Shown here: piece by piece, positions 1 through 57,733 of the stretch | How the letters are laid out: every line of letters starts with the position of its first letter | How positions within the stretch are numbered: the stretch's first letter is position 1 | Assembly: GCF_964355755.1 (NCBI RefSeq) | Contig: NC_092672.1 | Location: 11,156,501 to 11,220,500 of the forward strand | Length of the DNA: 64,000 bases | Direction of reading: 5' to 3' | From: Antedon mediterranea | Lineage: Eukaryota; Echinodermata; Crinoidea; Comatulida; Antedonidae | Position numbers and translations under genes: made by a program | The notes under the pieces: generated by a model | What the model was told of the DNA's origin: nothing | Databases searched by the model: none | Seen by the model: only the letters and a program-made list of their open reading frames with translations

Positions 1-133
1 GGCGAATTAGAAAGTTTGGTGGAAGCTAGGCACGAAGGGAGATGTTGTCTACATAATAAATACAATAACTTAGTCCATTATTAAATAACACAACTAACTT
101 AAACTTCAATTATAAATAGAAAAAATCCTTTAC

Positions 134-25775: not shown

Positions 25776-28700
25776 ATGATGTCACAGATTTGGAAAACGT
25801 CTCCGCAATTTTTCATATGTTGCATTCTTATCATTGCCGAGTGTGCTTCATTTACTCAAGCACAGCAGGCGTTTGGTAAATTTGCAAATTCTTCTTTATG
25901 GTTAAAACGCAATTCTAACTCGGTCGTTACTGATCAAAACAGCAACATTACAGAAGAAAAGAGTGGCATTGAATTTACGAAAGATGTATCTAATGGAACG
26001 CATAGCCGTCATAAACGTTATATTCAGAACAAATCTTACTGGGCAAATTGGGGACCATGGAGTGAATGTTCCGAGAGCTGCAGTGATAGTTATCGCACCA
26101 GAGAAAGAGGTTGTCGTAATAATGACGGTGTAGACCCAGCTACCAACAGAGAATATATGTGCCCAGGAAAAGGTCAGCAAGTTAAAACTTGTACAGATCC
26201 CTCATGTCCAGATAAAGGGGAGGTAGGAGAATCCGAATATCAAAGGTTGTTACGTATAAGCAATAAAAGAAATTCGGAGGCACGTAAGAGATGGACAAAA
26301 CGCGTGTCAGAAATCAGAGCACCACAAGACGGAAAACGCTATAATTCATACAAGAAGCCAATTCCTAGTAAGTAATAACCTTTCAGGCAGCAAAATAAAT
26401 TACATTTTCACACGTCCAATCAAATAACGTCATGATCAGTAAGTGCAATGATATCGTAACAATACAACGATGTTATTGCTTTTATTGATCATGAAGTCAT
26501 TTGGTCAGATTGTTAAAAATACTATTATCAATGACAGCATAAATGATTATCCTATAGGGCCTAGGCCTAGGCCTAGTTTAAAAACAAAAAATTTTTCCAA
26601 TTTATTTTGTTTTATGTAAGAACAAGGTCATATACATGGCCGCAGTCGTGCGCTAAAGTAATGTTTACCAACCAACCGACCGACATAGTGAGCTGTAGAT
26701 TCGCGTTGCACGTAACTAAAAATGTATGTTTATCTATTTATCGTCCATTGTTATCGTCCTAGTGTAAATTGGCCTTAAATCTAAAATATTTCAGAGAATC
26801 CTATCCTATAGATTATTATTTTATTATGTAGGATCCCAAATGACTGGCCTTTATGGGAATGGACAACTAGTGTTAGAAAAAGGACAGATGAAAGGTGGTC
26901 GATGGACAGTTTGGATGTCATGGGGAAGGTGTAGCAAGACATGTCTTGGTGGCACACGTGAAAGATATCGTACATGCTTGACACCGGATATGAAAATCTC
27001 ACTAACTTGTCGTGGTGAATTCATAGAAAGAACTGACTGCGAGTATGTAGAGTGTGCAGAAGCAAAAGAAACGGCGAGACTGAAACGTAAGTAATATGAA
27101 TAATGTTTGTGTAAGATTGAACTTTCCTACTAAAAAAAACACATTGTATTAATAAACTAAAGTAAAGATTACCGAAATTAAATAACGTTAGGACCGGTAG
27201 AACTTAGATGAGGAAAATATCTATCGTGTTCCACTAGGTGAATTTGTTTGCGCGGAGCGAACGCATCAGCTTACACGCATGCGTATTAATGTTTGCATCT
27301 TCTAAATCCCTTTCTACGCATGCGTATAAGCTGATGCTTTCAAATCGTGCCAAATTCGCCTAGTGGAAAATAGGCTTAACATGCTTAATTTATTTATTTA
27401 TTTCTCAATTCAAACGCAAATTAGACGTATTTTCCTAATATATAAAGTTTGTGTTTGGAAGTAAACACATAGGCCTAGTTTGTTAATAGAACGATAAATA
27501 TGAATACATCTTGGAATAAATTTGTTTCTTAAATCATGTACATTGTAAAATAAAATGAAATTCATCTTCAACAATATTATCTTTACACGTTCTACTATAC
27601 CTTTCTTTGTTTGTATCAAACCTGTTAGTGGCGGTAATTATCGTTGTTGGTTTCTATGTAATAAAAAAAAACCTTCCCATCTCCCCTTTTCAATTTCAAG
27701 CTCTAATATCCCTAAACGTAAATTAGTCAATCATTTTCTTGTTTAAAATTAATGATATTGGCCAAATGATAACTTAAAATTATTTATTTTCTTTAAAGAG
27801 AAAAGAATCTTAACTTATGATGTAAACTAAATTTTTGAATGAATTTTTGTTTTTCAATATCACATATCGTAACTTTTACTATTAACACATGTAACCAAAT
27901 ATAACCAAAACCAGTATAAACAAGGCCATATACATGGCTGTAGTCGCGTGCTCAAGTTAGTGTTTACCGACTAACCGACCGACCAACATAGTGAGCTGTA
28001 AAACCGCGTTGCACGCGTCTAAAAATAAAACTGATTGACCTGTTGTGGCCAACAATTTGCATTACGATTAACTTTTCTAAGTTGAACCTCATAGCACTTG
28101 AAAATAAATCTATCATGATCTAAAGTAATAATAATATGTAACCAAAATCTTACAAAAAAAGTGGTAACCTACCAAACTCGGAAGTAACACTAACAGCGGC
28201 ATTTGGTGCATTTTTTCAAACTTGCAATAAATATCTTCACAATTTAGATTTTTTAATAATGTTTGTGCTGTCTGACATTCCCCAGATTTTGCTTCCATGA
28301 ATTTAAAATAGGAAGTTTACACATCAAAAATATGGTTCATGTATTCATTGGTAGTCCTAATAACTGTTTTTCAAAGTCATTTTCCTCCCAAAATGTGTCC
28401 ATGGTTTGGCTTAGATAAATGTCAAACTAGGAATACTTACTTTTAACAAACTGTTACAGCAAGAATGTAGGCATATTATACTTATTTATAACAACTTTCG
28501 CAAAACACAAGGGATGCTTCTTTTCGAACTGAATGCATGCTGTACATTTTGTGTGAGTTGCTACTAAATTGTACGTTTCAGACAACTTGGTGGAAGCGTA
28601 GAAATGTCGCAATTCGTAGACTTTGTTTAAAATCATTGTTACAACATGTACAATTTTTCCCGTGTTAATGCCTGTAAGAATGGTATTTTTTTGTAGAATT

Positions 28701-31310
28701 TCGTCTGTTTATAATTGGTATCAACTGTGTTTGTCAAAATCCTGGATTAGATATCTTTTGTTGTATCTTTCCTAAGTTTAAGTATATTATTGTCCATGAA
28801 TAAGTTAACCCTGCTGCCAATCTATAGATTAGGTTAACTTTTAGGCTTTTCTTTTGTTATATTTATATCTATATTTTCATCCTGTAATTGTTGTATACAC
28901 TGCTGGATGGGAAAAACTAAGACACAAAATAAGAAAATACAAAAAAGAAATTCCATGCCAACTTGACATATTTTGCTAACGAGGAAAATACTATCAAAGA
29001 TGCGATCAAAGCACCATTTAGAAGACAATAAACAATGCAAAAACGATAAATATTAACAACAGTCTGAATTAATCATCGCTCACTCAACTAACATTTAACC
29101 ATGTTTGTCTTTGTATATTATAGGCCTACTTCTGTTCCTTTAGTTTAGTACCCTACTAAACAAGAGCATACTACGACCTTAAATAATACTTTATTGTTGT
29201 TCTCATTTAGGATTAAAACATAATCCCATACCGTCAATGAGTGGTGGACCATCTGATGAACTATTGAAAAAGATCGTAAGAGGAGAAAAAATTGATGTCA
29301 ACTGGGGGAAGTGGGGTTCATGGGGAGGATGTTCTGCGTCATGCGAGACTGGAGAACGAACACGCTATAGGATGTGCAAGACACTCGAAGGAGAAGTTGC
29401 CCCTGGTTGTGAAGGCAAGGAGATGGAAACTGGTAATTGCAATGCAATGTCATGCAAGGGAGCAAAACGAAACATATACAGTGGATTGGTATTCGGTAAG
29501 TTATTTGCGTAAAACAATGTTTAGTTAATCAATGATAGGTGGTCGTTTTATTTTGCGGGGTCGTTAATACCTGGTGGACATATGTGGTGGTGGTGGTTGA
29601 TCATCGTAGGTTTGTATCATATCCTGTAGAGTGTTGTTATTTTTGTAATCGTCAGACACATTTATAATGTTTGAAAGATTTGTTGCGAGACGATACGTTA
29701 TATCAAAGCAACAGGGGAATAGAGAACGCAGCATACGCCGCTCGTATAGCCAATTAATACCTTGGGTCTATAGAATAGGCCTAGCTAGACAGGTTTACTC
29801 ATGCATATTGGATGTTAAATAGGTAGAGCATATTGCGATAAACAATTATTATTGTTTGGCTTAATTAAAAACATAAATTAAATTTTATCATTTGTTTTCG
29901 TAATTATTTTGAAGAATTATAAGGTTTATTCTTCCATGTTCTACCCGTCATTCAACGTTTTCCATTGACGATATTTCTTTCAGAATTAATAAGCAGAGCC
30001 ATAATATATAAAGAGTTACGACATTGGGTTAAAGTCACATGATAACACTAGAGCAAAATGTGTCAGAATTTTCTCCACCGATGCATGTAAAGTATAGGAG
30101 AAACACAATATTTTAAAGATTTTCATTATTTAAATTTAATTGCAAATTTGATGTTTCTCGACGCACGTAACTAAAGTTGTTCGTAATGCTTGAGCACGCG
30201 CAGATCTATTTGTTTACAAAGTGGGCGGAGCTTGTGTGCTGCTGCATGTTGAGAAATAGCGTTAAAGTTAACGTTTACGTGCACCCTATTGTTAACTTTC
30301 TTTAATTTCGTATATTATTTATCTTTACCCTAGACTTTAGTGATTCAGAAGGTGTCAACATTCGTCAAAAGACATCGCCCAAGTCAAAGAGTAGTCCTTA
30401 CAATCAAGGAGATGCTCCCAAACTTCCATCTATTGCGAGTTCACCAAGGAAGTCTTCCAGTCCGTATAGCGCAGGTGATGCTCCTAAGGTTCCACCAAAG
30501 TATAACGCCAGGAGTAGACCATCAGGTCCATACAGCCAAGGAGATGCTCCTAAACTTCGACCCATCTCCAGTTCACCAAGGAAATCTTATGGTCCATATA
30601 GCGCAGGCGATGCGCCTAGAGTTCCTCCAAAGTATAACGCCAGGAGTAGACCATCAGGTCCATACAGCCAAGGAGATGCTCCTAAACTTCGACCCATCTC
30701 CAGTTCACCAAGGAAATCTTACGGTCCATATAGCGCAGGCGATGTGCCTAGAGTTCCTCCAAAGTATAACGCCAGGAGTAGACCATCAGGTCCATACAGC
30801 CAAGGAGATGCTCCTAAACTTCGATCCATCTCCAGTTCACCAAGGAAGTCTTACGGTCCATATAGCGCAGGCGATGCGCCTAGAGTTCCTCCAAAGTATA
30901 ACGCCAGGAGTAGACCATCAGGTCCATACAGCCAAGGAGATGCTCCTAAACTTCGACCCATCTCCATTTCACCAAGGAAATCTTATGGTCCATATAGCGC
31001 AGGCGATGCGCCTAGAGTTCCTCCAAAGTATAACGCCAGGAGTAGACCATCAGGTCCATACAGCCAAGGAGATGCTCCTAAACTTCGACCCATCTCCAGT
31101 TCACCAAGGAAATTTTACGGTCCATATAGCGCAGGCGATGCGCCTAGAGTTCATCCAAAGTATAACGCCAGGAGTAGACCATCAGGTCCATACAGCCAAG
31201 GAGATGCTCCTAAACTTCGACCCATCTCCAGTTCACCAAGGAAGTCTTACGGTCCATATAGTGCCGGTGATGCGCCAAGGGTTCCTCCAAAATATAACGC
31301 GAATAATTAG
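25776..31310 (+). CDS. Gene A: secreted protein with three TSP1 domains and a Tyr/Pro-rich repeat tail
   Basis: Not a gene I can name. Exons 25776-26367, 26832-27086, 29211-29495 and 30334-31310 join in phase (2109 nt, 702 residues). Residues 1-30 form a signal peptide (hydrophobic FFICCILIIAECASF). A basic RHKR site at 78-81 suggests furin cleavage. TSP1 domains follow: about 88-144 (WANWGPWSECSESC), one in exon 2 (WTVWMSWGRCSKTC) and one in exon 3 (WGKWGSWGGCSASC). Each keeps the W..W..W and Cys pattern. Exon 4 encodes seven units of 44 residues (SGPYSQGDAPKLRPI, then SSPRKSYGPYSAGDAP), basic and rich in Pro, Ser and Tyr, ending at TAG with no membrane segment. All three introns are phase 1. 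It duplicates the 5' part of gene B. An extracellular matrix or adhesive role is inference. Confidence 0.85.
26630..26725. repeat. Dispersed ~100-bp repeat in gene A intron 1; second copy 27920-28025
   Basis: Both copies share CAAGG(T/C)CATATACATGGC, ACCGACCGAC, ATAGTGAGCTGTA and CGCGTTGCACG in order. The second copy is in intron 2. Related words (ACGCACGTAACTAAA) link them to the family at 8085 and 29720. Confidence 0.55.
27222..27378. repeat. Short TIR element (MITE), family 'TTTTCCACTAGGCGAA', copy 2
   Basis: It begins GTTCCACTAGGTGAATTTG and ends CAAATTCGCCTAGTGGAA. Inner arms ACGCATGCGTAT also pair, giving a near-complete hairpin of about 140 bp. It lies in intron 2 of gene A. Confidence 0.7.
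29720..30290. repeat. Dispersed repeat in gene A intron 3; relative of 8085-8345
   Basis: Ordered blocks shared with the copy inside the TTAA element: TACCTTGGGTCTATAGA, CTCGACGCACGTAACTAAAG and TTGTTTACAAAGTGGGCGGA. Here about 330 bp separate the two halves, suggesting either two elements or an internal insertion. Confidence 0.5.
30399..31300 (+). repeat. Coding tandem repeat, 132-bp unit, seven copies (gene A exon 4)
   Basis: Units are spaced exactly 132 nt (at 30399, 30531, 30663, 30795, 30927, 31059, 31191), encoding 44 residues made of two related halves, each with GPYSxGDAP. Units 2-7 are almost identical at nucleotide level; unit 1 is more diverged. Because 132 is a multiple of three, the +1 frame also stays open for about 335 codons; I take this as a by-product. 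Confidence 0.95.
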
Positions 31311-31640
31311 AAAAAATACCATTATACATACAAGTTACAAAATTTAAAATCTATATAAACCCATTTTGATAATTATCTTACAGGGAGAATTACAATAAAA
31401 TGTTTGTGATTCGTTAGTTCAAAGAATGTTCAATATAATACAGTAATTGCACTTCAATCAAATGTAGTTACTTCACAGCTAATATACCAGAAAAAATAAA
31501 TTCTTCCTTTTCATTATTTCTTTTTATTTGGTTTGTTCTAAAATAACACTACTACAGATTTGGTCAATAGTTGTTAAAATGCTTCCTGATGAAATACTGA
31601 CGGTATAAATAAAAACCATACACATATAGAGTACATATAG
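31311..31640 (+). other. 3' flank of gene A, homologous to intron 4 of gene B
   Basis: Ordered similarity with 44650-44885: AAAGAATGTTCAATA, AAATTCTTCCTTT and GATGAAAT followed by GGCGGTATAAAT-type words. This marks the right end of the A/B duplication and shows that gene A ends where gene B goes into intron 4. No fourth TSP1 exon was found between here and gene B. Confidence 0.6.
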
Positions 31641-38618: not shown

Positions 38619-39823
38619 TTATGCATTGTCTTGTAATTCATGAGCAATCATATCCCTAACAATTCTCCCATTTGGTGCTACCGGTCCATTGTACACCTCA
38701 TCATTAACCATTATTTGCTGATCGTCTACCTCTTCGTCATCTATATCTGGGAGTTTTAGATCTCTAGCTATGTTATGTAATACCATCGTAGCAGCTATAA
38801 CAGCACATATTCTCTGGGGGGACATTCGGTTTTCCTCATGCATGGACCTGAACCTTCGTTTCCATACCCCTATTGTCCGTTCAACTATACTTCTTGTCAC
38901 CGCATGTATTCGATTGTACCTCTGTTGATGTGGATGGACAGGGTTAAAATATGGCGTTAATAAAAACGGCCGTAATGGATAACCCTTGTCACCAATTAAG
39001 TATCCGTCTACTTCCCCTCTCTCAAATATTGTGCACAATTCTGAATTCCGAAAAATACGTGAATCATGCGTCGCACCAGGCCATCTAATAACAGCATTTG
39101 TGAATTTCATTTCATGATTACAGACTACTTGTACGTTCAAACTATGGTATCCCTTCCTGTTGACGTACATAAATTCATTATCTTTTGGGGCCTGCATCCG
39201 AATGTGCGTACCATCGACAGCTCCAACAACATTTGGAAATCCAGCTTTTTCATGGAATCCAATTTTAGCACGCATAATTTCGTGGTTGTTGTTATGAAAG
39301 GTAACATATTGCCTTAGTTTGGCCTCAAATGCCAGAGAAACCTTTCTAATTATTCTACAAGCTGTCGATTCATGAATTCCTTTAAAAAAGGGGAAAAAGT
39401 TTTGTAAGACTATGTCCATTAAATTGTCATTTAAAATAATTATATAGGCCTATATATATAAAATACAGTAACGATTGCATTTTTATTACAATAAAACAAA
39501 TATCTAATAAATAATAGATTATGCGATAAAAAAGGACTACCTGCTATGTCACCAGATACATTATGCATCACCCCTGTAGCATAGAAACGGAGAGCTGTGC
39601 ACACTTGTAGAACTGGCGGAACCGAATGATTTTTATTTGATTGCCTTAAATGATTTATAATTAAATCTGTTAACATTAAAATTTCAGCGCGAGGAAATCT
39701 ATATTTTCTATACAGTTCATCGTCGTTATATGCATCCAAAGGATGTGTTCTATCACGGAAAATTCGTTCAATTCGTGGTCTTTCACGATCAATAATACCA
39801 AGGCCTATCATCGGCAACGCCAT
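38619..39823 (-). CDS. Harbinger transposase (HARBI1-like DDE nuclease)
   Basis: Cuts and pastes the element. Two exons, 39823-39541 and 39379-38619, join in phase (GACATAGCAG to GAATTCATGA) to 347 residues, the usual length of HARBI1-type proteins (about 350). The N-terminal helical part includes RKYRFPRAEI and a SGDIAGIHESTACRI helix-turn-helix-like block. The DDE_4 core shows GAVDGTHI (Asp about 150), GATHDSRIF, GDKGYPL (Asp about 225) and SIVERTIGVWKRRF (Glu about 261). All three catalytic acids are present and no stop interrupts the frame. The C-terminus has an acidic DDEEVDDQ stretch. Confidence 0.93.
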
Positions 39824-40542: not shown

Positions 40543-43500
40543 ATGATGTCAAAGATTTGGAGAAAGCTTGTAAAACGTTTTATAATATGCATTCTTGTCA
40601 TCGCTGAATGTGCTTCATTTACTCAATCACAGCAGACGTTTGTTAAATTAAAAAATTCTTCCCTAGGCCTAGGTTTAAAACGCAATTCTTACTCCGTCGT
40701 TACGGATCAAAACAGCAACATTACAGAAGATAAAAGTGGCATTAAATTCACGAAAGATGTATCTAATGGAACGCATAGCCGTCATAAACGTTCTATTCAT
40801 AACAAATCTTACTGGGCAAATTGGGGACCATGGAGTGAATGTTCTGAGAGCTGCAGTGATAGTTATCGCACCAGAGAAAGAGGTTGTCGTAATAATGATG
40901 GTGTAGACCCAGCTACCAACAAAGAATATATGTGCCCAGGAAAAGGTCAGCAAGTTAAAACTTGTACAGATCCCTCATGTCCAGATAAAGGGGAGGTAGG
41001 AGAATCCGAATATGAAAGGTTGTTACGTATAAGCAATAAAAAGAATTCGGAGGCACGTGATAGATGGACAAAACGCGTGTCAGAAATTAGAGCACCACAA
41101 GACGGAAATTTCTATAATTCATACAAGAAGCCACCTCCTAGTAAGTAATATTAATAACCTAAGATAAGACTAGGCTAGGCCTGATATTGCATTTTCTCGG
41201 GAACTAACTTGTCCAAAAACTTCATTTTTTTGGACAAGAAGCAAGGGTTAAAATCTGTGATTTGTAATTTTAAAACATAATTTGATTTAATGTATAGGTT
41301 TTTAAATACGAGTAGCATTGTTAGTCAAATGAGACTATATTGTTTGTTAATAATTATTTTTTTTAGTACCAGCACATGTGTTATTTTTTTAAAATTTTAT
41401 TCTGTGCATAGGCATATACTTACAACAGAACATGCCTATCGTTATCGTCTTAGTGTAAATGGGCCTTAAATCTAAATTATTTCATGGAACAAGTTATCCT
41501 ATAAATTATTGTTTTATTATGTAGGATCCTCAAGGACTGGCCTATATGGACCAACAGTGTTAGAAAAAGGACAGAAAGGTGGTCGATGGACAGTTTGGAT
41601 GTCATGGGGAAAGTGTAGCAAGACCTGTCTTGGTGGCACACGTGAAAGATATCGTACATGCATGACACCGGATATGAAAATCTCACTAACTTGTCGTGGT
41701 GAATTTATAGAAAGAACTGATTGCGAGTATGTAACATGTGCAGAAGCAAAAGAAAAGGCGAAACAGAAACGTAAGTAAGATTCACAATCACGTCACGATC
41801 TTAAAATCGCGTAATGAAAAGATATCGGACGATTTAATGTACCTTTAATTATGTTATTATTGTAGAGTAATCATGTTTACCTCTTATTCTATAATTGTAT
41901 AATACCCCTTTCACACCAAAAGCAAAACTCCGGAGACACCCCGGAGTTGACGTCCCGCTGTTTGGTGTGAAAGGTAAAATCAAGCAACTCCGGAGTTTAA
42001 AACTGCGGGGTTGAACAGCTGAACATTCTCCGGAGAGCGAACTGCGGGGACACCCCGGTGTTTTGGTGTGAAAGGTACCAACATCAAACTCCGGAGTGTT
42101 TTGGGTCAAAAGGTCATCCTCACACGATCACTCAGTGCTTTAGTTTTATTTCAAAATACTTTAAATATTTGTACAACATATATAGCGGGTTCAAAAATAA
42201 TAAGTAGTATCAATAAAACATTATATTACTTCTGGGATTTTTGAAAGTAATTATTAAATTAAACATATTATTAATTAAAATGATTCTAATGATCGTCGCT
42301 ATGTAAACAAACAAAATAGAGGGCGACATTTACAATTTTATTTTATAAACCCCGGAGTTGCTAGGTTGGTGTGAAAGGGGTATCTCCGGAGTTTCTCGAC
42401 GTTTTGAATGGTCATAAACCCCGGGGTGTCTCCGGAGACACTCCGGAGTTTTGGTGTGAAAGGGGTATAATATTGTAGTTGTTTTCATAGCCAGAGGCTA
42501 AGCATTGCAAGATCATCGCTATCGCTATCGCTGTCAAAGATTTCCATTGCAAAAATTGCAATGTTGGTTCCACTTGGTTGAATTCAAAATAAACGTACGT
42601 GACACGAACAACCGAATTCGTGCTCGATGTGAAAGCGCGCTCAACGCTCGCGATATTTTCTCACGGCGCCGGACCGAATCCGGGCGCGATGTGAAAGCAG
42701 CTTACAGTTACATACCTATGGAAAGATAAGCTCTGCATCCTGATTTTAGATTACCTTGGTGGTGGTGGTATGAAAAATTCTTCTTGTTTAGAAACTAAAG
42801 AGGGTTTCAGGCAGGAGTCTTCATTTCAAATTGAATGATGGAAATTATGTGAATTCCTACTGAAAGTATAGTAGGCCTACTTTCCAGACATTTTGGTGAA
42901 AATGTAGAATTGTAGGTACTTGTACAAGATGCGATCAAAGCTCCATTTTAAAAGAAAAAACTCGAAAATAAATGTAGAAAAAAGACGAAAAATACTATCA
43001 GTCTGACACCCAATTAACTTTTATTTAACACATGTCTGTATATTATTGTTTGTTATATTTCTGTTCCTTTAGTTTAGTAATCTTCAAAAAAGACCCATTA
43101 TATCTTTACGTAGAGTATTTTAAACTTCTCATTTAGAACTAAAACATAATCCCATACCGTCAATGAGTGGTGAAGTGTCTCAGGAACTTTTGGAAAAGAT
43201 CCTAAGAGGAGAAAAGGTTGATGCCAACTGGGGAAAGTGGGGTTCATGGGGAGGATGTTCCGCGTCATGCGAGACTGGAGAACGAACACGCTATAGGATG
43301 TGCAAGACACCCGAAGGAGAAATTGCCCCTGCTTGTGAAGGTAAAGAAGTGGAAAGTGGTAACTGCAATGCAATGTCATGCAAAGAAGCAAAAGAAAACA
43401 TATACAGTGGATTGGTATTCGGTAAGTTATTTTCAACAATTTGTAACAATGTTAGTTAGTGTCAATCATAAGTCGTTGCTTTATTTGTCAAGTCGTTGCA

Positions 43501-46500
43501 ATATTGATGCGTTTGTTGGTGATCATAATATAAGTTCGTTCCATTACCCTGTAAATTGTTACTGTTTATTGAAATCGTCAGACAAATTTTGAATAAAAGG
43601 TTTCATACGAGACGCTATGGTAATTCAAAGCATTATTAGCTTTTTTTTTATTACGATATTATTTTTATTACATTAGATTTTGGTGATTCAGAACCTATGA
43701 TTCGTCAAAAGAAATCGACCAATTCAATGTATGGTCCTTACAATCAAGGAGATGCTCCCAAACTTCGACCAATTTCAAATTCACCTAGGAAGTCTCACGG
43801 TCCATATAGCTCGGGTGATGCGCCTAGGATTCCTCCAAAATACAACGCCAAGAGTAGGCCTTCAGGTCCATACAGCCAAGGAGATGCTCCTAAACTTCGA
43901 CCTATCGCCAGTTCACCAAGGAAGCCTTACGGTCCATATAGCGCAGTTGATGCACCTAAGGTTCCACCAAAATATAGCACCAAGAGTAGGCCATCAGGTC
44001 CATATAGCCAAGGAGACGCTCCTAAACTTCGACCTATCGCCAGTTCACCAAGAAAGTCTTACGGTCCATATAGCACGGGTGATGCGCCTAGAGTTCCTCC
44101 AAAATACAGCGCTAAGAGTAGACCATCAGGTCCATTTAGTCAAGGAGATGCTTGGAAACTTCGACCAATTGCGAGCTCACCTAGGAAGTCTTCCAGTCCG
44201 TATAGCGCGGGTGATGCGCCTAAGGTTCCTCCAAAATACAGGGCCAAGAGTAGGCCATTGGGTCCATACAGCCAAGGAGACGCTCCTAAACTTCGACCTA
44301 TTGCGAGCTCACCTGGGAAGTCTTCCAGTCCGTATATCTCGGGTGATGCGCCTAAGGTCCCTCCAAAATACAGGGCCAAGAGTAGACCATCAGGTCCATA
44401 CAGCCAAGGAGATGCTCCTAAACTTCGACCTATTGCGAGCTCACCTAGGAAGTCTTTCAGTCCGTATAGCGCGGGTGATGCGCCTAAGGTCCCTCCAAAA
44501 TACAGCGCCAAGAGTAGGCCATCAGGTCCATACAGCCAAGGAGACGCTCCTAAACTTCTACCTATTGCAAGCTCACCTGGGAAGTCATCCAGTCCATATA
44601 GCTCTGGTGAGTGTCAGCAAATAAATGAAAAAATTACAATTATAAGGATAATTTACCAACAAACAGTATAATCTTACACGGTTTAATATATTGAAATATG
44701 TCATACGTTCGTAAAGAATGTTCAATAATTAAATGTATTCACTTCATAGGACATATCAGAAATACAAATTCTTCCTTTCCAATATTTCTTTTCATTCGTT
44801 CTAAATGAACAAACAGGTTTAGTAAATAGCTTTAAAATCCTTACTCTTGATGAAATTCTGGCGGTATAAATTAAACATACTTAGGCCTAAAGGCATAACA
44901 ATTAACTCACAAGAAGAAATTTCTTGTCACACATGCATGATCCCCCCAAAAAAAGAAAGAAAAGTATCGCTTACACGTTATTGTGACTCTATATTATAAT
45001 AAGTCGACCTTATATTAGCGCTTAATGCACAATGCATCAAGCCCTTCACATTATTATCCTGGTCATGTTTTGGAAATTTCTAGAAATATAGTCACTCCCA
45101 TGGTGTTGCAGCCAGTAATCATCGCAGTTAAGTTTGGACCAATTAAATAGCACGTACCCATTTGTACACCTGGGCGGAGAAAGTATGTTAAAAATAATTT
45201 GTTATAAAAAAAACACTGAAAATGAATTTGTTTAGATTCTAGATCTACTGGCGAATGGGGTGAATGGATGGCGTGGCAACAATGTTCAGCTTCTTGTGGA
45301 AAGGGTAAACGTGTAAGAGACAGAAAATGCGACAGTCCACCACCACCAACAGATGGCGGTGAGCCATGTTTTGGGAACAATATTGAAAGTGAGACATGCG
45401 CCGGAGAAACTCTCTGCAAAGGTAAGTGTGATCAGGTAAGAGTGAAATTACAATTTCACTCTTCTTCCCTGGTATGATGGTCTGAGTTGACTCAATTTTT
45501 ACTATAATAGGCCTACTGACCAAAAATAGGGAGGTTTCGCAACCTTACGAATACGATAACGAAAACGTCACACATTTGTGAAATTTTTGAGCTGTAGTCC
45601 AGTAAAGATAAGTCAAAAATAGGGTGAACCTAGAACAAATTGCAACAGAATTTTTTTTTGTTTTGTCTGGTAAATATGGTTCAAATGAATATCATATCCA
45701 AAGTTTACCAAAATCGGACATCGGGAAGTGGGTTAATTAGCATAAATTCAAAATGGCCGCCATTTGCTATTTTGAAGCCTCATATCTCTCTAACGGTTGG
45801 ATTTAGACCACCTAAGTGCATTACGAGTAGATATAAATGTGATATTAAACATTCTAATTAGCATATTTAAATTTCCATATGACGTACTTATGATGTCATA
45901 TGGTAGTTGTGACGTCATATATTATGTTATAACTGTTTAAATGACATTATACTATTCGAACAATTTAGGGACTGCAAGAAAACATGTTTCTTGACATTCT
46001 CCTTGTTAAAATGAACATTATTTCCAAAGTTTACCAAAATCGGACGTCAGGAAGTGGGTTAATTAGCATACATTCAAAATGGCCGCTATTTATCATACCA
46101 TTTTGAAGCTCCATATCTCCTTATCACTTGGTTTTAGACCACCTAAGTGCATTGAGAGTAGATATAAATGTGATATTAAACTTTATAATTAGCATATTTA
46201 AATTGCCATATAACGTACCTATGATGTCATAAGACATATGACGTCATGTATTTTGTCACAATAATGCTCAATTGGCATTATTCTAAGGGGAAAATATAGA
46301 AACCGAAAGGAAAAAATGTTTTTAATCTCATGAAAATAGTAGAACATTTACCACATCCAGGTTAAGATCATGGGTATCAGAAGGTATTCGGCAACCCTTC
46401 ACAACATGCAATAGAACATTCCAGTTAATTTTCTGCAACTGCAACTTTTTATAACTGCATATATATCTCATATATCTCATATATATTTAAAGAAATAGGA

Positions 46501-49500
46501 TTCTTAATTAAGTAATGAGTCTGGGATTTAATAATTCGACCCCATCCTAAATATGGAGTTGGATCACAGTAAGTTTCCAATCCAAAGTACATACATAGAA
46601 AATGTAATGTTGGCGCCGTCAAAATACTTCATTGGCTTTTCTGATGTCTTTTTAAATTTTGGACCAAACAGTTCTTGCTTAGAATAGAATGCATCCCCCT
46701 GTTTCTTTGCAAGTGCAGAGCATTACAAAGATGTTGCAAATTTGCTCCTTAAGATGTTTTCTTTAAGTACCAATTATTCCACTATTTTTTGCTTCTTCTG
46801 TCTTAAAACGCAGTCGCTTTTTTTAATTATGGCAAAGTAAGATATTTAATAGATCCCCATCTGCATTCAAAGTTTATTCCATTTTTCTGACATTTTTTGT
46901 CAAGGAAATTGAATACTGTCTTGTCGAAAAATAAAATACTGTAATTAGTAGTGGCAAGTTTGAAAATTACTGTATTACCTTAACAACCCCTTTTTGGATT
47001 CCGTTGATGTGTATCTTTTAACTGATGGTTCTTCATCCTAGTTAACACTAGGATGAAGTGTCCTTGTTATATGCTCATTGAATCTTGGAAACAGCATTCA
47101 AAAGATAAACATTATATAAAACATCATAAAAAGTTGTTGTCTCATAAATGATCGACATCAAACAGATGCAATGAAATAGCAAATTTGAAAGAGCAGAGTG
47201 GAGATGCTGACTATACAGAAAACTACAGTATGACATTTATCATTTTCATTTCAATTGAGATGAGTTTGTGGGAATGATGGGTTTGAATTGCCTGACCCAC
47301 AATCAATCGCCTCATTAAAATATTTTTTTTATTCCTTTACCAATTTAAAGAGATAAAGTTCTAAAAGATGTAGTTTTAGAAAACACAAAACAAGATGTGC
47401 GCTTGAGTACAAATCAGTTTCGGAAATACAGTTGATGATCACCTTTCATACGGTTCTGTAGAATATCTATTTTCATAAGATTTTGTAAATGGAAACTTAA
47501 TGATAAATTTCAATGGTTTTTACATATATATCTACTCGTAATGCACATAGGCTGTCTAAACCCAACCGCTAAGGAGATACAGGGCTTCAAAATGGTATTT
47601 TGAATTTATGCTAATTGACCCTCTTGAAGTCTAATTTTGGTGAACTTAGGAGATCATGTTCATTTCAACAGGAAATTGTTAGAAAATTGGTTTCCTGCAG
47701 TTTCTACATTTTTTAGCATGGGATAATGCCATTTAAGCAGTTATAACATAATATATGACGTCACAACTACCTTATGACGTCATATTTACGTCATATGGTA
47801 ATTTAAATGTGCTAATTGGGAAGTTTAATGTCACATTTATATCTACTCGCAATGCACTTTGGTGGTCTAAAACCACCATTAAGGAGATATAGGGCTTCAA
47901 AATGATATAGTAAATAGCGGCCATTTTTAATTTATGCTAATTAACACACTTCCTGACGTCCGATTTTGGTAAACTTTGGAAATTATGTTCATTTCAACAA
48001 GGAGAATGTTAGGAAACTTGTTTTTCTGCAGTTTCTAAATTGTTCGCATAGTATAATGTCATTTAAACATTTATAACATAATTTATGACGTCACAACTAC
48101 CATATGACGTCATAGGTACGTCCTATGGAAATTTAAATATGCCAGTTAGAATGTTTAATATCACATTTATATCTACTCGTAATGCATATAGGTGGTCTAA
48201 ATCCAACCGTTAAGGAGATATGGGGCTTTAAAATAGCAAATGGTGGCCATTTTGAATTTATGCTAATTAACCCACTTCCCGATGTCCGATTTTGGTAAAC
48301 TTTGGATATGATGTTCATGTTCACCATATCAACCAAATAAAACAAAAAAAAATTCTGTTGCAATTTGTTCTAGGTTCAACCATATTTTTACTGGACTACT
48401 GATCCCCATTTCATATCGTAAAGTCATATTCGTAACTACAAAACGAGTATAGTTTTTGATCTATTTTGCACATTTTGCATTTGAATCAGGAATGATTCAT
48501 GATTATAATAATTATAATTATAGATTTATTGAAAGTAATTTACTAAAGTAATTTACTAAAATGCCAGGTCAATTTTGATAAATAGCAGTTTCTAAAGTCC
48601 TCACTCGCATTGATGTTACGCTAGGCCTAGGCAGCCAAGCACCAAGCAACACGTACCTGCGCTTCGCTCAAATTTACCGCAGTCATATTTTGGACGGCGC
48701 CCTCAATATTTCATTGCCATGTGAAACAGATTTTTACTGGCTTACGAAAACGAATACGTGCGCGTGACGTATCCGTTTTCGTTATCGTATTCGTAAGATT
48801 GCGAAACCTCTCTAATATCGTATCGTATACACACTTTACCTCAATTAAACGGCATCTCTAGACCGCAATATCATAAACATCTCATCGAAGTGTAACAGGC
48901 AGAAAGCGTGGCAAAATATAGTGTCAGCTGTACGTTGTCACGTCGCAACGCGTCAATTCTAGTCAAATCGCGTCATTTTAAGTAGAATAATTGCGTCAAA
49001 TTACTATCCGTTTAATCTTTTTTTACAATTAGACGAAAACTACTCAGTAATTACGTCAGATATATTTTTTTATTATAAACATTTCTGGATTATTTATATG
49101 ATTAAATGAATAATAGTATAAACCATGTGAGGATCACAATTAATAATTGTACACAATAATTCAAGTAAAACAACTAAAATACATAATATTAAATAGTTGA
49201 TATTACATATTTCTATACATTATGTTTTTTATTCATTGAATGTCACAATCAATGTAATAAAAAAATGTATTGGATTACAGTTTAAAAAGAAATAAATGCT
49301 AATAAATAGATAATACTAAATAATAGGTATTATAAAATTCCTGTTATTTGATTGGACGATTGTGGGTGGCGTGCAATAGTACGTACTATTAACCGATCGT
49401 TGAATAGTACTTTTTTTCGTGTACGAAAAAAAAATCGTTTCGCGTTTGGAAAATATTATTTTAATACTATTGCTTTTAAAATACAACAGCGCCACCTATT

Positions 49501-52500
49501 TGTACTTTCCCCGCGCGCGAAGCGAAGATTGACTGGTTTCGCGACGGGGGTACATTTTTGGAAAGATATATTTGTACTAATTTAGATCAAAAAGGCATTT
49601 AAATTAGCTTTAGATCGTTTGAAGGATTTTGATTAATTAATGAGAACATCTCTACAAGACGTGAAATCATTGGTTGAAAATACGATAATTCCTAATTATC
49701 GTATTTAATTAGCCAAGATGAGTTCCAGTTGCCTGTCGAAGTTTCTGCTGTCTTTCAGCCTAGCTAGTATAGTAATAAGCCTAAACCTGTTAGTATTAGG
49801 CTAGGCCTAGGCGTTTTAGCCTGACTAGGCCTAGGATTGTTTGGTTGTTTGTTGACATATTAGCACTACAGTGGGTGTGTTTATAAAATCCATATAAATA
49901 TAATATTTAATATAATTATTAAAAACCAAATGTTACTGTATTAATCAATGTGAATCAAATGTAGGTCTTAAGCTAGGCCTAACATTTATTTTAAATTAGG
50001 AATAGTAATCTATTTAGATGTTATATAAACAAATAATGAATGTTTTATATTCGTGTAATGGTACAAATGATGGTATTTCGTGAATGATGAAAGGTTACAT
50101 ATCAACTCGGCTTCGCCTCGTCGTTGAAATATAACATTTCATCATTCACCTCATGCCATTATTTGTGCCATTACACTCAATATTTATTATTTGTATATTA
50201 GAAATTAAAGGAAACATCTTAAGACATAAACAATCTTGATATTGTATGTTTTGAAACATTTTTTTTCTTGCATTGGCCGACTTCATACAGAGGCAGATTA
50301 ATTAACATTTGGTATAAATAAAGACTAGCCATTTAACATTTACAGTATTTATGTTCTACTGTACCATACAATAGTTATATAACAATATTTAAATCAATAT
50401 TTTGCTTTTTATTTATCTATTTTTTATATTGATTATTTGAAGATTTTTGTAATTATTTTATTCAACTGAGTAATAATTTGATGAATCAATAACATTTTTA
50501 AAATGTCATGGGTCAAAACGAGTAAAAAAAATAATATTAAACTGCGAACGTTTAAATGTAATTTTCTTTTTATATGATACGTTTTTATGTCAAACTTTGT
50601 GTTATTAGGCCTACATTTAAAATATTATTAAAGTAATTACGCGTACGATCGGGATTGAAAGATAGGATTTTCACCCGATAGATAATATATACTATGGTGG
50701 GATTGGCTCACCTGAAAAATGTATTTCAAGAATTACGCACAATTTCAGTAATTTACTTAAGTTTATGTTTTGATTGTCGAAGTTTTTTTTAATAAATGAA
50801 AATATATAAATAAAAATAAAATAATTGAAAGTTAAATTATGACGGTTTAATTTCAGATGGAACAATGATACATGAATTGAGAGTAACCATTGGTTTTGAC
50901 GCCAGGCTTAGCTGTGATGCGGAATGGTATCTTGTCCACCACCCTGACGCGACTGTTGAATGGTACAAAGATCAAAACGTTGTCGAATTAACAGGTAAAA
51001 ACTATGGGCGGCCGTTGGGGCCAGAACAGACAATGTGCAAATATGCCGAAAGGACGGACAAACGCGGAAAGGACAAATACAAACATCGGAAACTGCGTTC
51101 TATCACCATTTTCTTTTTACCTTTTGCAAATTCTTCCTCTCTATTTTCCTGTTGGTTGCGCATTTATGCGATCATATAAATATCAATACGCATAAGCCAT
51201 GATTTGATGTATAATTGAGGTTAGTTAGTGTAAGAACAAAACGGTGATGCCCAATTGAAATTGATATTCATTTAATACGGTGTTACGATTAGTCGAACAC
51301 TAATAATAATTTTTTTTAATAGAGCATTGCACAAAACAGGTGTAATAACTAAGATTTTCTGAAAGTATAATTTTACATAATATACAAATAATTTTCAAAA
51401 CAAAACAATGTAATGAGTAGTAGGTGAAACTACATATAACGTGACTCTTGGGAAAATATAGATTATCGTTATTTAGAGTCATGAATGGTAGGCCCATTAG
51501 GCCTACTTGGTACGTCTTTTATTTAGAATTGGTTTTTTTTTTTCTCTCAACGCGTTGTGGTTAATATTTATTTTTAGTGGCCCTTACATAAAAATAAAAT
51601 AAAAAGGGCGTGACCAATCCAAATCCAGGTGCCGTTTTTGTAATAAATAAATTGGTCACAAAAATTAATTTTACCATAGGGAGAGGGTAGGCCTACACAC
51701 TCTTAAAGCGCATTAGATGGCCGTTATTCAAAACACAGTTTCGAATGTGTTAAAACTATTCACATGACAGAAATATAAATTTAACGAGGGTTCATTTTCA
51801 TCGTTTGAGTTATTTTAAGAAAAACCGATACTGCTTTTGATTCGAAAATAGTACTGTCCGTAGGGGCAGTGGCATTCAGGGCTGGTCTAACATGAATGAT
51901 AAACAATACGTGAAAAACTGTGTCGAACACAACGATGATACTACCGGGGTGAATTCCCAACTGTCTGGTTCATTATCTTTTACTACCTTGGGTGACATGC
52001 GATACATGTTAATGACACGGATGGACGAGCAGCTCAAGTCAGGATGTTTGGTGGGTTTTCTTACCGGGGGTTGGAAAAATTAACCCAATTGTAACCTTTA
52101 CATTTGGACCAAAACGTTATGCAGAAAATATGGCGGACAAATATAATATAATAGGCGATTTATGAGAGCTTACTGCAATGTTTCGGACGTTAAAAAGTGC
52201 AACGGACGGAACATTAGGTACGGGGTGCAGTCCGACACGCTACCTATTCTGTCTTACAAACCACGGTTTGTAAAAGATAAAAGAGTCAAATAGGTGTCTG
52301 TCGGACGGCGCCCCGTATTACCATTAGATATTCTGTGACTAGACTTAATAAAATAATTGCTAAATGGAGATTTAGCGACATACATTGAATAGTGTACCAT
52401 TTATTTGTGGTCTAGTAAGTTATCTATATATAAATTATTAATTAAATTAATTCAAAACAATCTTACCGTAATGCAAACAAAAATAAATTATACTCGTTTT

Positions 52501-55500
52501 CTTTAAGGTTAAGTTACATTTTTGTGACATAAAGTGTGATAGTGTAAACACAGAGCTTAACGAAAAATTAGCAGACTGATATTTAAAAAACAAGATCTTG
52601 CTAGAAATAGAGATAATGTATTAAAAAAATTAATGTTATAGATTTTGAGTTCACAACCAATCAGTAATCAATCAATCGATATGTGTCGCGTCGGTGCTGT
52701 AGATAAAAAGGCTGAAATATACCGTATATCACGTTGAACATACTTTCTACTGCAAGTCTGATAATACAATTTATACATTTCCAATCTTTGGTAAATTGGT
52801 AACATGGGATCGGGGTTTTGACTGTGGACAGTTTTTATATTTCTTATAAAAGTTTGCAATGTAGGCCTAATGTTTTACGGTGTTGATCAGTTTCAGTGGC
52901 GAACGGTCGAATGTTTGTGCCGGTGATTTTTAATATTATTATCAACACATGCAACAACAAAGCAGAAATAACATACGTACTGAATATTTACATTTTCAAA
53001 ATGTATGACGATTTATTTTCATAAATGTACGCAAAGTTACGTTAATTTAAAGTTTCTTTTATATTATTGTGAACTTATATTAGGTAATACCATCATGGAA
53101 TCTATAATAAACAATGTATTGATTCTTTACAGGTTCTATCCAAAATATAGGGTTGGGCGATTTACAGATAACGAAGGTGAATCAGCAAAACGAAGGCGTG
53201 TACGCATGCGCGATTACCAAGGACCAACAGTCTTATTATAACAACGTTGTACTTTTAAAAGGTATTTTATAGGTTTTTTTTTATTATGACACAGAATTTT
53301 CAATAACTCGTACTTTAAACATAATTGCTTTTAAAATTGCGACATGTTGAGTAACACGCCCTAATTGTTTCTATATTGTAAACAATGACACACGGCTCCC
53401 CTAGCCTTGAACATTGCTCCTAGGCTATTGAAACTGTTCACGGTCTAATTCCAATATATTTATTCAAATTATTAGCCTAAATACTGTACAAAGTTCTTTC
53501 ACCATTGGTTTTTCTCATCATCAACTTTAACCTAAAAGGCCCCTGGCTTCAAACCTCTCTTGAGGATTGATGATGTTGGACGCCAACTGAATGATTCAGA
53601 AATGTATTGAATTGATTGAGAGTACGCTGACAGATCGTGGCGAAAACTAGATAAAGACGCACAATTGCGCACGCACAAAAGCTGATAATGGCTTGCGTGC
53701 ATTTAAACTATGTCTGTTAACGTTTGTCAGTCTTCAGCATGCCTTTGTCGGGGAACTAAACCTGGGTGCAAATATTATAATACGGAAATAAATTTATATT
53801 TAAACATGATCGTAATATTTTTAAACCTATGTAGGGACGATTTGGGTTTTTGAAAACATTTTTGGGAATTGAAGAACTAGGCCTTTTCTATTACACAGAA
53901 TACGACGATTTAAGGGTTTAATTTATGCAATACCGATTATGTAATACGGTACCAGACATACATTTATTGGGCCTACAATGTGTTCATTATTTTAGGTAAA
54001 TAAACCTTATATTAAAGTAAAAGTTGTTTACAGATTTTTAAAAATATTTCAGATTTCATGTGCACTACATCATTTTGTACTTAAGCTACTGACCTCGTAA
54101 ATCAGAAATTATTTGTAAGATCAACGCCTATTGGACGTTTATATAAATGGACGTTGCAACAATCTAACCCCCGGATTTGGGAATGTAAACTCATTTACAA
54201 ATTAGCAAAACCTAAACCACATTGTTTCTTAATAACATGTTATTATATTAGTTTACTCGACAGGTGCCATGTCGTAAAAAAATGAGTTACGCACCATTGA
54301 AAGCGACCGAATTTTAATCTAGTCGTTTGTTGAGCCATGAGAAAAAAAAAACAAAATACATTTAAAGAGTTTCTGTATTGGAACTGTGCGCATGACGGAG
54401 ATAACGGTCCTAAAGTCAACACTTCAAACTTTATGACAAAAAAAAATTGATGTGTCCATATTATGGTAGTGATATTGTCAAATATGGTAGTGATATGACA
54501 TCCATATTTGGACATATCACATTTTTTTTTATGTTGAGATTTATGCTTCTAAACTAACAGAATAGCATTTCATACCAATACCACTTCTCCAATTTGCATC
54601 TCCTTTTAAAAAACTAACAAGTTGGAATTTCCATGTGAATGTAAAATAATCATTCCCAAGCCCATTATTTTTTACCTAAATTTGTAAGACAGAAAATAAT
54701 GCATCGGCCTAAAAATAATTATTTTTGTTGAAACTCCTAATTAAAAAATCCATAGCCATCAAATTATATTATGTATTGTCAACAACGAGCTAATACATAA
54801 TTAAATGGCATAACCTACTCTTGATTTATGCTCATGTCTATACATAGCGCCCTCCCGTAAGTTTTTAATTTATGTTTTAATTAAATGTTACGCATTATTC
54901 ATTCTGCTTCATCACAATTTGGAAAAAGTTCCCCTGTTTGAGGGTGGACAATTAATTTAATATTTGCTACAATTTTTTAACCCACTTATTTTTTATTTTT
55001 GCATTGTAGTCAAGACAACGATGTCATTAATGGAAGTTGGTGAGTTATTTTAATTTTATGGATGATAATTACAAATATTCACAATCTGAAGGGGTGGGAT
55101 TGTGCTCAGAAAATCATTCGAATAGAAAACGTTGTTAACGCAACGCAATCTCAACTCAACTGAAAAACTGTACTTAACGGTAAAATTCCCAATTGGATAC
55201 AGTTGTCTCAGGTTGAACATTTTTTTTAACAGCTCCCTCTATTGTTTAAAAAGTTAAGTTTAGCAGTAAAATCAGAATGGACAACCTGTAAGCGGAATTT
55301 TTTTTGTACATTGGTTCCGAGCGTAGCAGATTTTTTCCGTACATTGGTTCCGGCAATCGGTACATCGTGTAAAGTTGGTCGAATTTTATACAAATACTAG
55401 CTGCAAACACGAACCTAACCCTTTAATATTTCACTATAAGACGTCTTATTTTGTGCAGTTAGGTAACGTTCGCGCTATCATTATTTTTTCAACTTGTTTC

Positions 55501-57733
55501 AAAAGATCGTTTTTGATCAACAATAGAGTCGAATAAAGTCGCCTGGAAAACAAGCTTTAGTATAATATATAGGCCTGTATCGGGTGTCGTTATTTATATT
55601 TCTTCTATTATTTCAACGTATGCAAGGTGTACGCTTTTCATACAAATTGTAAAACACAATATAAGCTATTTATGATACCAATAGACAACTTTGGAGTACA
55701 CGCACTTCCTTCCACCATGTATCGAAATCATTGAGTGTAATCAATTTTAGAAGACGAATTGGTATGAAGATCGACCGAAAGATCAAGTTTAAACCAAATT
55801 ATTCTTCTACTATACATAATTATGGTAGTACCTCGATCTCTAATTAATGATTGTTTTCCTTGGTATTATACTTTTATCAAGAATGACAACTAGTAATAGA
55901 AACATTTTAACTAAATTTCCTTTCTGATTGCACATAATATATGAAAAGTAAGTTTTTAGTAAAGGACTTGTTGTAATAAATTCTTTACGAAATATAATCG
56001 TTACTAGATTAATGAATTTTATTTAAAAAAAATGCTTTATTCACCTATTTTGTAGCTCAAACTCAACCTCAGCGTCTGGTCGTACCAATCGTACTTCCAC
56101 TTTTAATCTTCGTATTAGCTGTCGTGACATTACGAAGAGAATATCAAAGGTTAGTTTAAATATAATAGGCATATACGGGAATATATTTTATCAATCCGAA
56201 CGATTGATTGGTTCCATGTTTATTTTAAAATTTGTCCGTATACTACCCTTTGATGCATTTTGTGGGGTGGACGGCAACGAACATTGTTATTTAAGACCGT
56301 GTATTTTAGCAACGGTGGGTTATTTTACCATAATTAAATTGTTTTATCAAACATGGCAATAACTTTGCTGAAAGTTGCTCGACAGAAAGCGACATACAGT
56401 TTTTACATTGTTTTATGAGAACGAAATCTCCAAGACGGCCGGCATTTCGTTTTATTTTAGTACAATAATAGTTTGTAAAAGCTGATTTTTTAATGAACTT
56501 TAATTTTACTTTTTATCGTTATTATTATACATGTTTATGGTAACTTGGACTACATAATTTAATGTTATTAGTGGACTGAAATTTAAAATTATTATGATGC
56601 TATAAAATAATATACACACAAATTAGGAGAAATAACATCTGATGATTTTATATCACCAGCAGAAACAGACGACTGCATAATGCTAAAAACAAAACATTTT
56701 TACGTTCGTATTGAACGAATAAATCAAAACGTCACGAAAGGCTTACGGGGCTAATAGCCGACGAGGTTAATGTCCAGAAAGTCAAGTTTAAACCCCAAGA
56801 AAGCCAATGATAAACGTTTTGGGGACATGGGTGCGGGTCTGGGATTTAGACAGGATTGCCAAGTTCAATGGGTTTTATGGGGTGAAGGTCATTTGTGGAC
56901 ATATATCGTCTGGTATTTAAACACGCCAGACAAAATCCAGGTCCTTTAATAATATTAAATTACTGCAGTACAAAACTATTATATTAATATTATGGTCAAA
57001 TTTAGTAGCTTGTGGTTAGATAGGCCTACCCAAAATTGGTTTTGCTTAATATTGTTTAACTCTAAATGATGTTACCCCGATGAAATTGTTTATATTTTTG
57101 TGGGCGAAACAGTAAAATGTTTTTTAGGCGAAACGTTATTACATTTGTGGGCGAAACGTTATTACATTTGTGGGTGATACGTTCATATCTGTTTTCATTG
57201 TATTTGATGTGGTTTGACATTTTGTGGGCGTTTTCACATTTTACATTTGTAGGTTCTAAGCTTCGAAACTCTTCCGAATTGGCCTACGGTTTTGTCAACG
57301 ACATAACAACTACAATAGGCTGTGTTTTTTTATACTAATTACATGTATTGCATAAAATAAAACGTAGATAGGCCTAATAACATTCATTATTTGTATATTA
57401 CATTGTAGAATGAAAAATCCGTCAACTAAACGCTCAAAAAAGAAGTCGAAAAAGAAGAAGAAGGCTAAAAAATCCAAAAAGGAAGAGGAAAGTAGCTGCG
57501 ATGATGATGATGATGGTGGTGGTTTTGGAGGTCCACCACCACCACCACCACCACCAGGACCAGGTGGAATGAGTGGACCACCGGGGATACCACCTCCATC
57601 AAGGCCTATGATGCCTCCAATGGGTGGGTTGCCGCCTGGTCCGCCATCAGCTGGTGGTGGGCCTCCTGGTGATGGAGGGTTCGTACGACCTCCAATGTCA
57701 GCTAATTTATTACAGGGTATTAAAAAGCATTAA
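40543..57733 (+). CDS. Gene B: TSP1-repeat-TSP1-Ig single-pass membrane protein with polyproline tail
   Basis: Unnamed gene; a type I receptor-like protein. Exons 40543-41140, 41525-41770, 43137-43421, 43677-44606, 45236-45421, 50857-50994, 53133-53261, 55010-55039, 56056-56149 and 57409-57733 have GT/AG borders and join to 2961 nt, 986 residues. Order: signal peptide (1-30), RHKR (80-83), TSP1 at 90-146, 219-271 and 312-363, seven 44-residue repeats (about 394-686), TSP1 at 693-748 (WGEWMAWQQCSASC), Ig domain (Cys768, Trp784, GVYAC with Cys820), short stalk, transmembrane helix about 855-873 (LVVPIVLPLLIFVLAVVTL), and a tail with Lys-rich, Asp5 and eight-proline stretches. The first eight introns are phase 1, the last phase 2. 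Introns 5-9 hold no recognised gene. UNC5 receptors also mix Ig and TSP1, but in another order and with a death domain, absent here. Function is not known; cell-matrix or immune recognition is conceivable. Confidence 0.85.
41903..42468. mobile_element. TIR element (MITE), ends ACCCCTTTCACACCAAA
   Basis: The left end TACCCCTTTCACACCAAAA and right end TTTTGGTGTGAAAGGGGTA are inverted repeats. CTCCGGAG and CCCCGG words extend the fold at both sides. It lies in intron 2 of gene B and has no coding frame. A truncated relative is in an enolase intron (3498-3806). Flanks carry TAA on both sides, consistent with a 3-bp target duplication. Confidence 0.75.
43733..44606 (+). repeat. Coding tandem repeat, 132-bp unit, seven copies (gene B exon 4)
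   Basis: Same 44-residue module as in gene A, with the forms GPYSQGDAPKLRPIASSP and SPYSAGDAPKVPPKY. The units differ more from each other than in gene A. The last unit is cut off at the exon's donor (GCTCTG/GTGAGT), which falls at the Gly-Asp codons of the second half-unit. Confidence 0.93.
45531..48810. mobile_element. 3.3 kb foldback element with arms built of ~326-bp tandem units
   Basis: Ends GAGGTTTCGCAACCTTACGA and, inverted, TTCGTAAGATTGCGAAACCT. The left arm (to about 46270) holds two units and the right arm (from about 47510) three inverted units. The word TTTACCAAAATCGGA recurs 326 bp apart on the left, and its complement recurs 326 and about 329 bp apart on the right. The centre (46280-47500) is AT-rich with no recognised transposase. 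Each unit contains ATATGACGTCA-type words. Open stretches of about 75 codons in the arms mirror each other and are by-products. Located in intron 5 of gene B. Confidence 0.85.
49575..50260. mobile_element. TIR element, inverted relative of 31925-32575
   Basis: Begins AATTTAGATCAAAAAGGCAT. Contains GTGTTTATAAAATCCATATA and CAAATGTTACTGT, found as complements at 32300-32430, and an internal palindrome (CGTGAATGATGAAAGGTTAC and its complement). No coding frame. In intron 5 of gene B. Confidence 0.55.
57102..57190 (+). repeat. Short tandem repeat in gene B intron 9
   Basis: GTGGGCGAAACGTTATTACA and related words are repeated about three times with a ~26-bp period. Confidence 0.6.

Follow-up and report, generated by a model that had tools for sequence, protein, structure and literature searches.

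A predicted membrane protein gene and a shorter copy upstream of it

The window, a stretch of 64,000 nucleotides from the crinoid Antedon mediterranea, contains two related genes on the forward strand. The longer one (40543-57733, +) consists of nine exons with GT/AG borders, which join in frame without a stop and encode a protein of 976 amino acids with the features of a membrane protein. The shorter one (25776-31310, +) is a four-exon tandem copy, which carries the same first four exons, stops within exon 4 and encodes a protein of 702 amino acids that would be secreted; an earlier note, made from the sequence alone, does not mention this copy. All parts that the note had assigned to the longer gene lie in the sequence where that note had placed them. 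The membrane gene is made up as follows (in brackets: basis of the assignment).

40543..41140 (+): exon 1; signal peptide, propeptide ending in RHKR (furin-type site, residue 80), TSP1 domain 1 and a charged linker (Pfam; paralogue 25776-26367)
41525..41770 (+): exon 2; TSP1 domain 2 (Pfam; paralogue 26832-27086)
43137..43421 (+): exon 3; TSP1 domain 3 (Pfam; paralogue 29211-29495)
43677..44606 (+): exon 4; basic Tyr/Pro repeats, 6.7 x 44 aa, ending at the donor GTGAGT inside a half unit (TRF; pN/pS 0.27 against the paralogue)
45236..45421 (+): exon 5; TSP1 domain 4 (Pfam; nearest elsewhere in the genome is a hemicentin-like locus with a TSP1 at 52%)
50857..50994 (+): exon 6; first half of the Ig domain with the first Cys and the Trp (Pfam)
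53133..53261 (+): exon 7; second half of the Ig domain with the EGVYAC motif (Pfam)
55010..55039 (+): possible 30-nt micro-exon in the stalk (VKTTMSLMEV), uncertain (splice scan)
56056..56149 (+): exon 8; transmembrane segment LVVPIVLPLLIFVLAVVTL followed by RREYQR (hydropathy; codon score of the model frame negative)
57409..57733 (+): exon 9; tail on the cytoplasmic side with a Lys-rich stretch, an Asp-rich stretch, eight prolines and a Gly/Pro/Met-rich end, closed by the stop codon (positive in-frame codon score)

Exon junctions and reading frame

Introns 1-7 of the membrane gene are in phase 1 and the last intron is in phase 2. The splice matrices derive from the two paralogues themselves, and junctions 1-3 are therefore not scored independently. 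By leave-one-out score, six of the eight donors are found in the top 2% of the 3544 GT sites of the window, and the donors of the two Ig exons 6 and 7 (GTAAAA and GTATTT) are weak, with ranks of 12-15% among these sites. The eight acceptors rank at 1-21% among 3317 AG sites. The join of exons 6 and 7 is directly supported, since the Ig_2 profile matches the Ig part alone with an E-value of 3.3e-08 over profile positions 10-77 of 79 and thereby runs across the junction. The open reading frame at 51841-52083 is not counted as an exon, as exon 6 does not lead into its frame and exons 6 and 7 already supply a complete Ig domain.

A codon score, which is crude and was trained on exons 1-3 of the membrane gene alone, gave positive values in the model frame for exons 5 and 9 (21.5 and 29.5) and negative ones for exons 6, 7 and 8 (-0.5, -2.5 and -5.3); another open frame of exon 8 scores +5.9. 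The frame of exon 8 is set by the incoming and outgoing phases, which fix it, and the transmembrane reading hangs on those phases.

The earlier note had counted, without listing them, ten exons free of phase conflicts, and 986 residues. Nine of them join in frame as described, and the tenth is plausible only. In a lax scan of all eight introns we found a 30-nt exon at 55010-55039 that keeps the frame, with a T-rich tract ending in TTGTAG in front and GTGAGT behind. This is probably the tenth exon in question, because 976 and 10 residues add up to exactly 986. Judged by its sequence it may plausibly be a real exon and is the weakest piece of the gene; a short candidate with an equal score was present in 2 of 22 antisense tiles of equal length, and a stricter scan of introns 4-7 (both splice scores at least 6) yielded no extra exon. 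Other short candidates in the lax scan were 42036-42065, 57128-57157 (within a tandem repeat) and 56778-56912 (135 nt, score 11.1).

Domain composition and predicted topology

Pfam analysis of the 976-aa protein resulted in matches over the cut-offs for TSP_1 (four stretches, E 3.6e-30), Ig_2 (1.2e-06) and I-set (1.2e-05), with Ig_3 and V-set below their cut-offs. The fourth TSP1 and the single Ig domain of the earlier reading are thus recovered, the latter by Ig_2 across exons 6 and 7. The 26 cysteines of the ectodomain after the signal peptide fall into groups of 6+6+6+6+2, corresponding to four TSP1 domains and one Ig domain. Four WxxWxxW and four CxxS/TC sugar-addition motifs are present in the ectodomain, and all four TSP1 domains show the core of the superfamily (WxxW, six cysteines, and predicted O-fucose and C-mannose motifs). 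The Ig superfamily core is represented by the Cys-Trp-Cys pattern (C768, C820) and a DxGxYxC-like motif.

The strongest hydrophobic segment is LVVPIVLPLLIFVLAVVTL with a mean KD of 3.04, and the next one, at the N terminus, reaches 1.83. The former is followed by RREYQR and a Lys-rich stretch, which places the positive flank inside. The cytoplasmic tail of about 110 residues is charged and runs from Lys-rich through Asp-rich to poly-Pro (Pro8), an order that had been proposed before. Pfam assigned neither a catalytic nor a signalling domain to it; weak matches in the tail, for example to AP3D1, are below the cut-off and look compositional. Taken together, the signal-like N terminus, the one strong hydrophobic segment and the Pfam matches to TSP1 and Ig support a type I topology and the domain order, as the earlier note had it for the membrane placement. 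The protein may act as a receptor.

The basic repeats

TRF detected 6.7 copies of a 132-nt unit in the membrane gene and 6.9 copies in a second array at 30394-31300. The earlier description, three TSP1 domains followed by seven basic Tyr/Pro repeats of 44 residues, holds for the TSP1 domains, and the repeats come to 6.7 units. Each unit of 44 residues consists of two diverged 22-aa halves, so that the array of the membrane gene comprises 13 full halves and a stump; the two types of half unit, GPYSxGDAPKL.P... and GPYSxGDAPKVPPKY..., share 32-50% of their residues. Mean nucleotide identity between units (six each) is 0.86 within the membrane gene and 0.93 within the upstream copy, and the value between the two genes, 0.84, is below both. 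When two units, combined into one composite query, were searched against the genome, all 11 matches fell within the two arrays (21/21 candidates scored).

The composition of the repeats (288 residues: Pro 20%, Ser 19%, Lys+Arg 18%, Tyr 7%, pI 10.4) is in agreement with a structural matrix or adhesive protein that is tethered to the cell and is not a signalling receptor, the Tyr/Pro/Lys repeats giving cohesion, and the presence of the same repeats in the secreted sister points in this direction as well. Yet there are only about 3 Tyr per 44-residue unit, and the long charged tail in the cytoplasm is unexpected for a plain tether, which makes this explanation somewhat unlikely. No PDB relative of the repeats was found at E<=1, a result that speaks neither for nor against a structural protein.

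The predicted secreted copy and the extent of the duplication

The upstream copy and the adjoining homologous stretch are composed of the following parts.

25776..26367 (+): paralogue exon 1; signal peptide, propeptide, TSP1-1 (alignment to the membrane gene)
26832..27086 (+): paralogue exon 2; TSP1-2 (alignment to the membrane gene)
29211..29495 (+): paralogue exon 3; TSP1-3 (alignment to the membrane gene)
30334..31310 (+): paralogue exon 4; repeats and in-frame stop, the GTGAGT donor being absent at the matching place (alignment, TRF)
31311..31621: end of the recognisable homology, here to the membrane gene's intron 4 as far as about 44880 (alignment, tblastn)

In a global alignment read in steps of 100 bases, the exon steps are 76-99% identical, whereas the interiors of introns 1 and 2 reach about 40-55%. 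Since the exons of the paralogue are conserved well above the intron interiors, exons 1-4 are also checked by this comparison. Between the copies, exons 1-4 differ at 116.2 of 457.5 synonymous and 139.8 of 1594.5 replacement sites (pN/pS 0.35, Fisher 1.4e-18). Broken down by exon, pN/pS is 0.27 for exon 4 alone (Fisher 9e-19), a value that assumes that the repeat units align unit for unit, and 0.55 for exons 1-3 alone (p 0.006), where the differences are spread nearly evenly over the three codon positions (31, 31 and 37). Both copies look protein-coding, because synonymous changes exceed replacement changes between them, and the constraint on exons 1-3 appears modest.

Five flanks (the 5' flank, the 3' parts of introns 1 and 2 and the 5' parts of introns 3 and 4) align above control with 0.10-0.25 differences per site, and the other three of the eight (the 5' parts of introns 1 and 2 and the 3' part of intron 3) are not above the best of 60 random controls. 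Homogenisation of the exons by gene conversion was considered and is unneeded, as the divergence of the aligning flanks is close to the synonymous distance between the copies (0.15).

The recognisable duplication ends at about 31621 and 44880, respectively, before exon 5. In a tblastn search of the window (E<=1), exons 6-9 matched nothing besides themselves but one stretch of 7 residues, and exon 5 matched only other TSP1 exons apart from one match of 6 residues; no remnant of exons 5-9 was seen near the upstream copy. A possible extension of the duplication past exon 5 (32129-32262 against 50025-50194) was dropped, because 50020-50200 is a dispersed palindromic element, although the 32129-32262 stretch is not itself among its 40 scored copies. 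Used as a query, this element of intron 5 was matched 88 times, with hits spread over ten of the 11 chromosomes; 40 of 1283 candidates, query included, were scored, and the other 39 copies are 87-91% identical to it.

One gene or two, and the origin of the pair

We propose, with a probability of about 0.6, that the long gene is a single gene, that its product is a type I protein of the cell surface with a role in adhesion or recognition, and that a partial tandem duplication gave rise to a secreted version of the outer part of this protein. That exons 1-9 form one gene is in itself very probable.

The course of events may have been the reverse: a secreted gene would be ancestral, and its duplicate would have come to lie ahead of older TSP1-Ig-TM exons and been captured there. 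The breakpoint in intron 4 fits such a chimeric origin, as does the exon 4 donor of the membrane gene, which sits inside a repeat half-unit where the upstream copy reads on; moreover, the match at 50025-50194, being a dispersed repeat, does not carry the duplication past exon 5. However, in the alignment the stop of the upstream copy lies opposite the beginning of the membrane gene's intron 4, which is what truncation of the secreted copy would predict, and a truncating partial duplication would need fewer steps. A chimeric origin is compatible with the explanation that we favour, and we regard it as unlikely.

The longer gene could also be two separate genes, one with four exons and a secreted product, finishing within exon 4 or shortly behind it, and one that consists of exons 5-9 and codes for the TSP1-Ig-TM part. 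In favour of this view, the upstream copy stops within exon 4, the recognisable paralogy stops in intron 4, so that the duplication does not prove the joining of exons 4 and 5, and a frame read on past the donor of exon 4 runs into a stop at 44671. Against this, exon 4 ends in a good GTGAGT donor (top 1.8% of GT sites by leave-one-out score) in phase with exon 5, and exon 5 starts in the middle of a codon. A separate gene of exons 5-9 is further disfavoured because it would need a signal exon of its own: introns 4-6 contain five hydrophobic ATG frames, and with the eight donor hexamers used no phase-1 donor turned up for any of them, though this set of hexamers does not include the weak donors of the membrane gene itself. 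Overall, two genes are quite improbable. A decaying pseudogene pair, for which the modest constraint on exons 1-3 could be cited, is highly improbable given the low pN/pS of exon 4 under unit-for-unit alignment and the intact frames of all modelled exons in both copies.

Comparison with known families and genome-wide searches

The UNC5 netrin receptors are likewise type I proteins with TSP1 and Ig domains, and in the PDB the TSP1 parts matched UNC5B and UNC5D, among others. UNC5 proteins have the order Ig-Ig-TSP1-TSP1-TM-ZU5-UPA-Death. In contrast, the membrane protein reads TSP1x3-repeats-TSP1-one Ig-TM, does not start with two Ig domains and has no Pfam match to ZU5 or Death domains at E<=1. 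Properdin and other TSR-only proteins are strings of TSP1 domains; properdin is among the best PDB matches, and the secreted copy is similar to a protein of this type that carries a tail of repeats. Properdin is devoid of basic repeats, Ig and TM, and the TSR-only type is secreted and built of TSP1 alone, whereas the long gene has an Ig domain and a TM segment and the upstream copy combines TSP1 with repeats. For thrombospondins sensu stricto, type 3 repeats and the TSP C-terminal domain gave no Pfam match at E<=1. The same applies to the BAI adhesion GPCRs: Pfam matched neither GAIN nor 7tm, and besides the signal peptide there is one strong hydrophobic segment. CILP, papilin and ADAMTSL have TSP1 before Ig, and are secreted proteins with other domains and without a TM segment.

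Hemicentin (fibulin-6) also combines Ig and TSP1, and exon 5 finds its best match elsewhere in the genome (52%) in a TSP1 domain on C4, where a hemicentin-like locus lies. Hemicentin is described as vWA-Ig(n)-TSP1-G2F-EGF-fibulin module (PMC10381214). The membrane protein differs from this by the reversed TSP1/Ig order and the TM segment, and has no Pfam match to vWA, G2F or EGF at E<=1. The C4 locus (C4:23213500-23223400) is the 3' part of a hemicentin-like gene with six TSP1 exons followed, by eye, by G2F-like and EGF-like exons; I-set exons lie upstream of the TSP1 exons.

The genome searched comprises 354.4 Mb in 18 sequences, 11 large ones (22-41 Mb) and 7 of 13-567 kb. The black sea cucumber has 23 chromosomes, the spiny sea star 22 and one brittle star 20 (PMC11310086), so that 11 points to another class, perhaps the crinoids. 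Antedon has n=11. With exons 1-3 as the query, the two copies were found at E<=1.6e-39 among 41 matches, and the next match is an ordinary TSP1 stretch (2.5e-12, 31% identity). A query of the Ig-TM-Lys part, with the poly-Pro end outside it, gave four matches, all to its own four exons (17/17 candidates). Genome matches of I-set and TSP1 within 50 kb of each other were restricted to the C4 locus in lists read by eye (150 scored of 1313 I-set and 150 scored of 376 TSP1 candidates), which is no proof of uniqueness, since split Ig domains such as that of the membrane gene escape a search of this kind.

The earlier note knew of no described family with the order TSP1-repeat-TSP1-Ig-TM-polyproline. 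A limited literature search brought up no description of it in the accessible parts of the sources, which does not contradict the claim and is weak evidence of absence. The cnidarian TSR superfamily is reported to include TSR proteins with Ig and other domains as well as a TM-containing TSR-only protein, and we found no description of the present order in the excerpts of that survey (PMC5446238). The modules are ordinary, and within this limited search no description of their order was found.

Proposed function

Returning to the favoured reading of a cell-surface protein with a secreted partial copy, family knowledge suggests that TSP1 domains 1-3 may bind an extracellular partner, be it a sulphated glycan, the matrix or the surface of a microbe. 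The basic repeats of 22/44 residues would form a long, flexible and positively charged spacer, while TSP1-4 and the Ig domain beside the membrane could hold or pair the receptor through lateral contacts. On the inner side, the Lys-rich stretch presumably sits on the membrane face, and the Pro8 stretch might recruit actin adaptors of the profilin, EVH1 or SH3 type. The secreted copy, with the same TSP1 face, may act as a soluble decoy, an opsonin-like bridge or a co-ligand.

Receptors often gain a soluble partner through splicing or shedding. Here, a young and still recognisable partial duplication appears to give the secreted form a gene of its own, and the locus may make both the receptor and its soluble counterpart. 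We see the secreted partial paralogue as the more interesting part of the locus, more so than the order of the modules. As a tentative extension from sequence comparison, the membrane protein might represent a receptor family of new architecture in an echinoderm, probably crinoid, lineage. Its locus would have been divided, through the partial tandem duplication, between a membrane receptor and a soluble form with the same three-TSP1 binding face, a recent pair of receptor and decoy (or receptor and opsonin). If true, the locus would offer a small, manageable example of domain shuffling after which receptor and soluble form became separate, in a group of animals that has received little study.

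Other features of the window and the genome

Between the two paralogues lies a DDE_Tnp_4 transposase frame (38619-39449, -; E 2.1e-38) together with a Myb/SANT-like frame on the opposite strand (37348-37716, +), a pair that we take to resemble a PIF/Harbinger-type element. Exons of an enolase gene are found at 110-4385 (-), with Enolase_N on 2495-2809 and the other exons assigned by eye, and a YEATS-domain exon at 17070-17348 (+; E 4.2e-12). Two tandem arrays were detected, a 23-bp satellite at 18568-18938 (16 copies, 98% matches) and a 15-bp array at 59389-59933 (35 copies, 81% matches). Elsewhere in the genome, and in keeping with an echinoderm as the source, two tektin exons matched chains of PDB entry 8snb, which we take to be sea urchin sperm doublets, better than the tektins of other entries (4.7e-86 vs 1e-44 and 1.7e-51 vs 1.8e-39).
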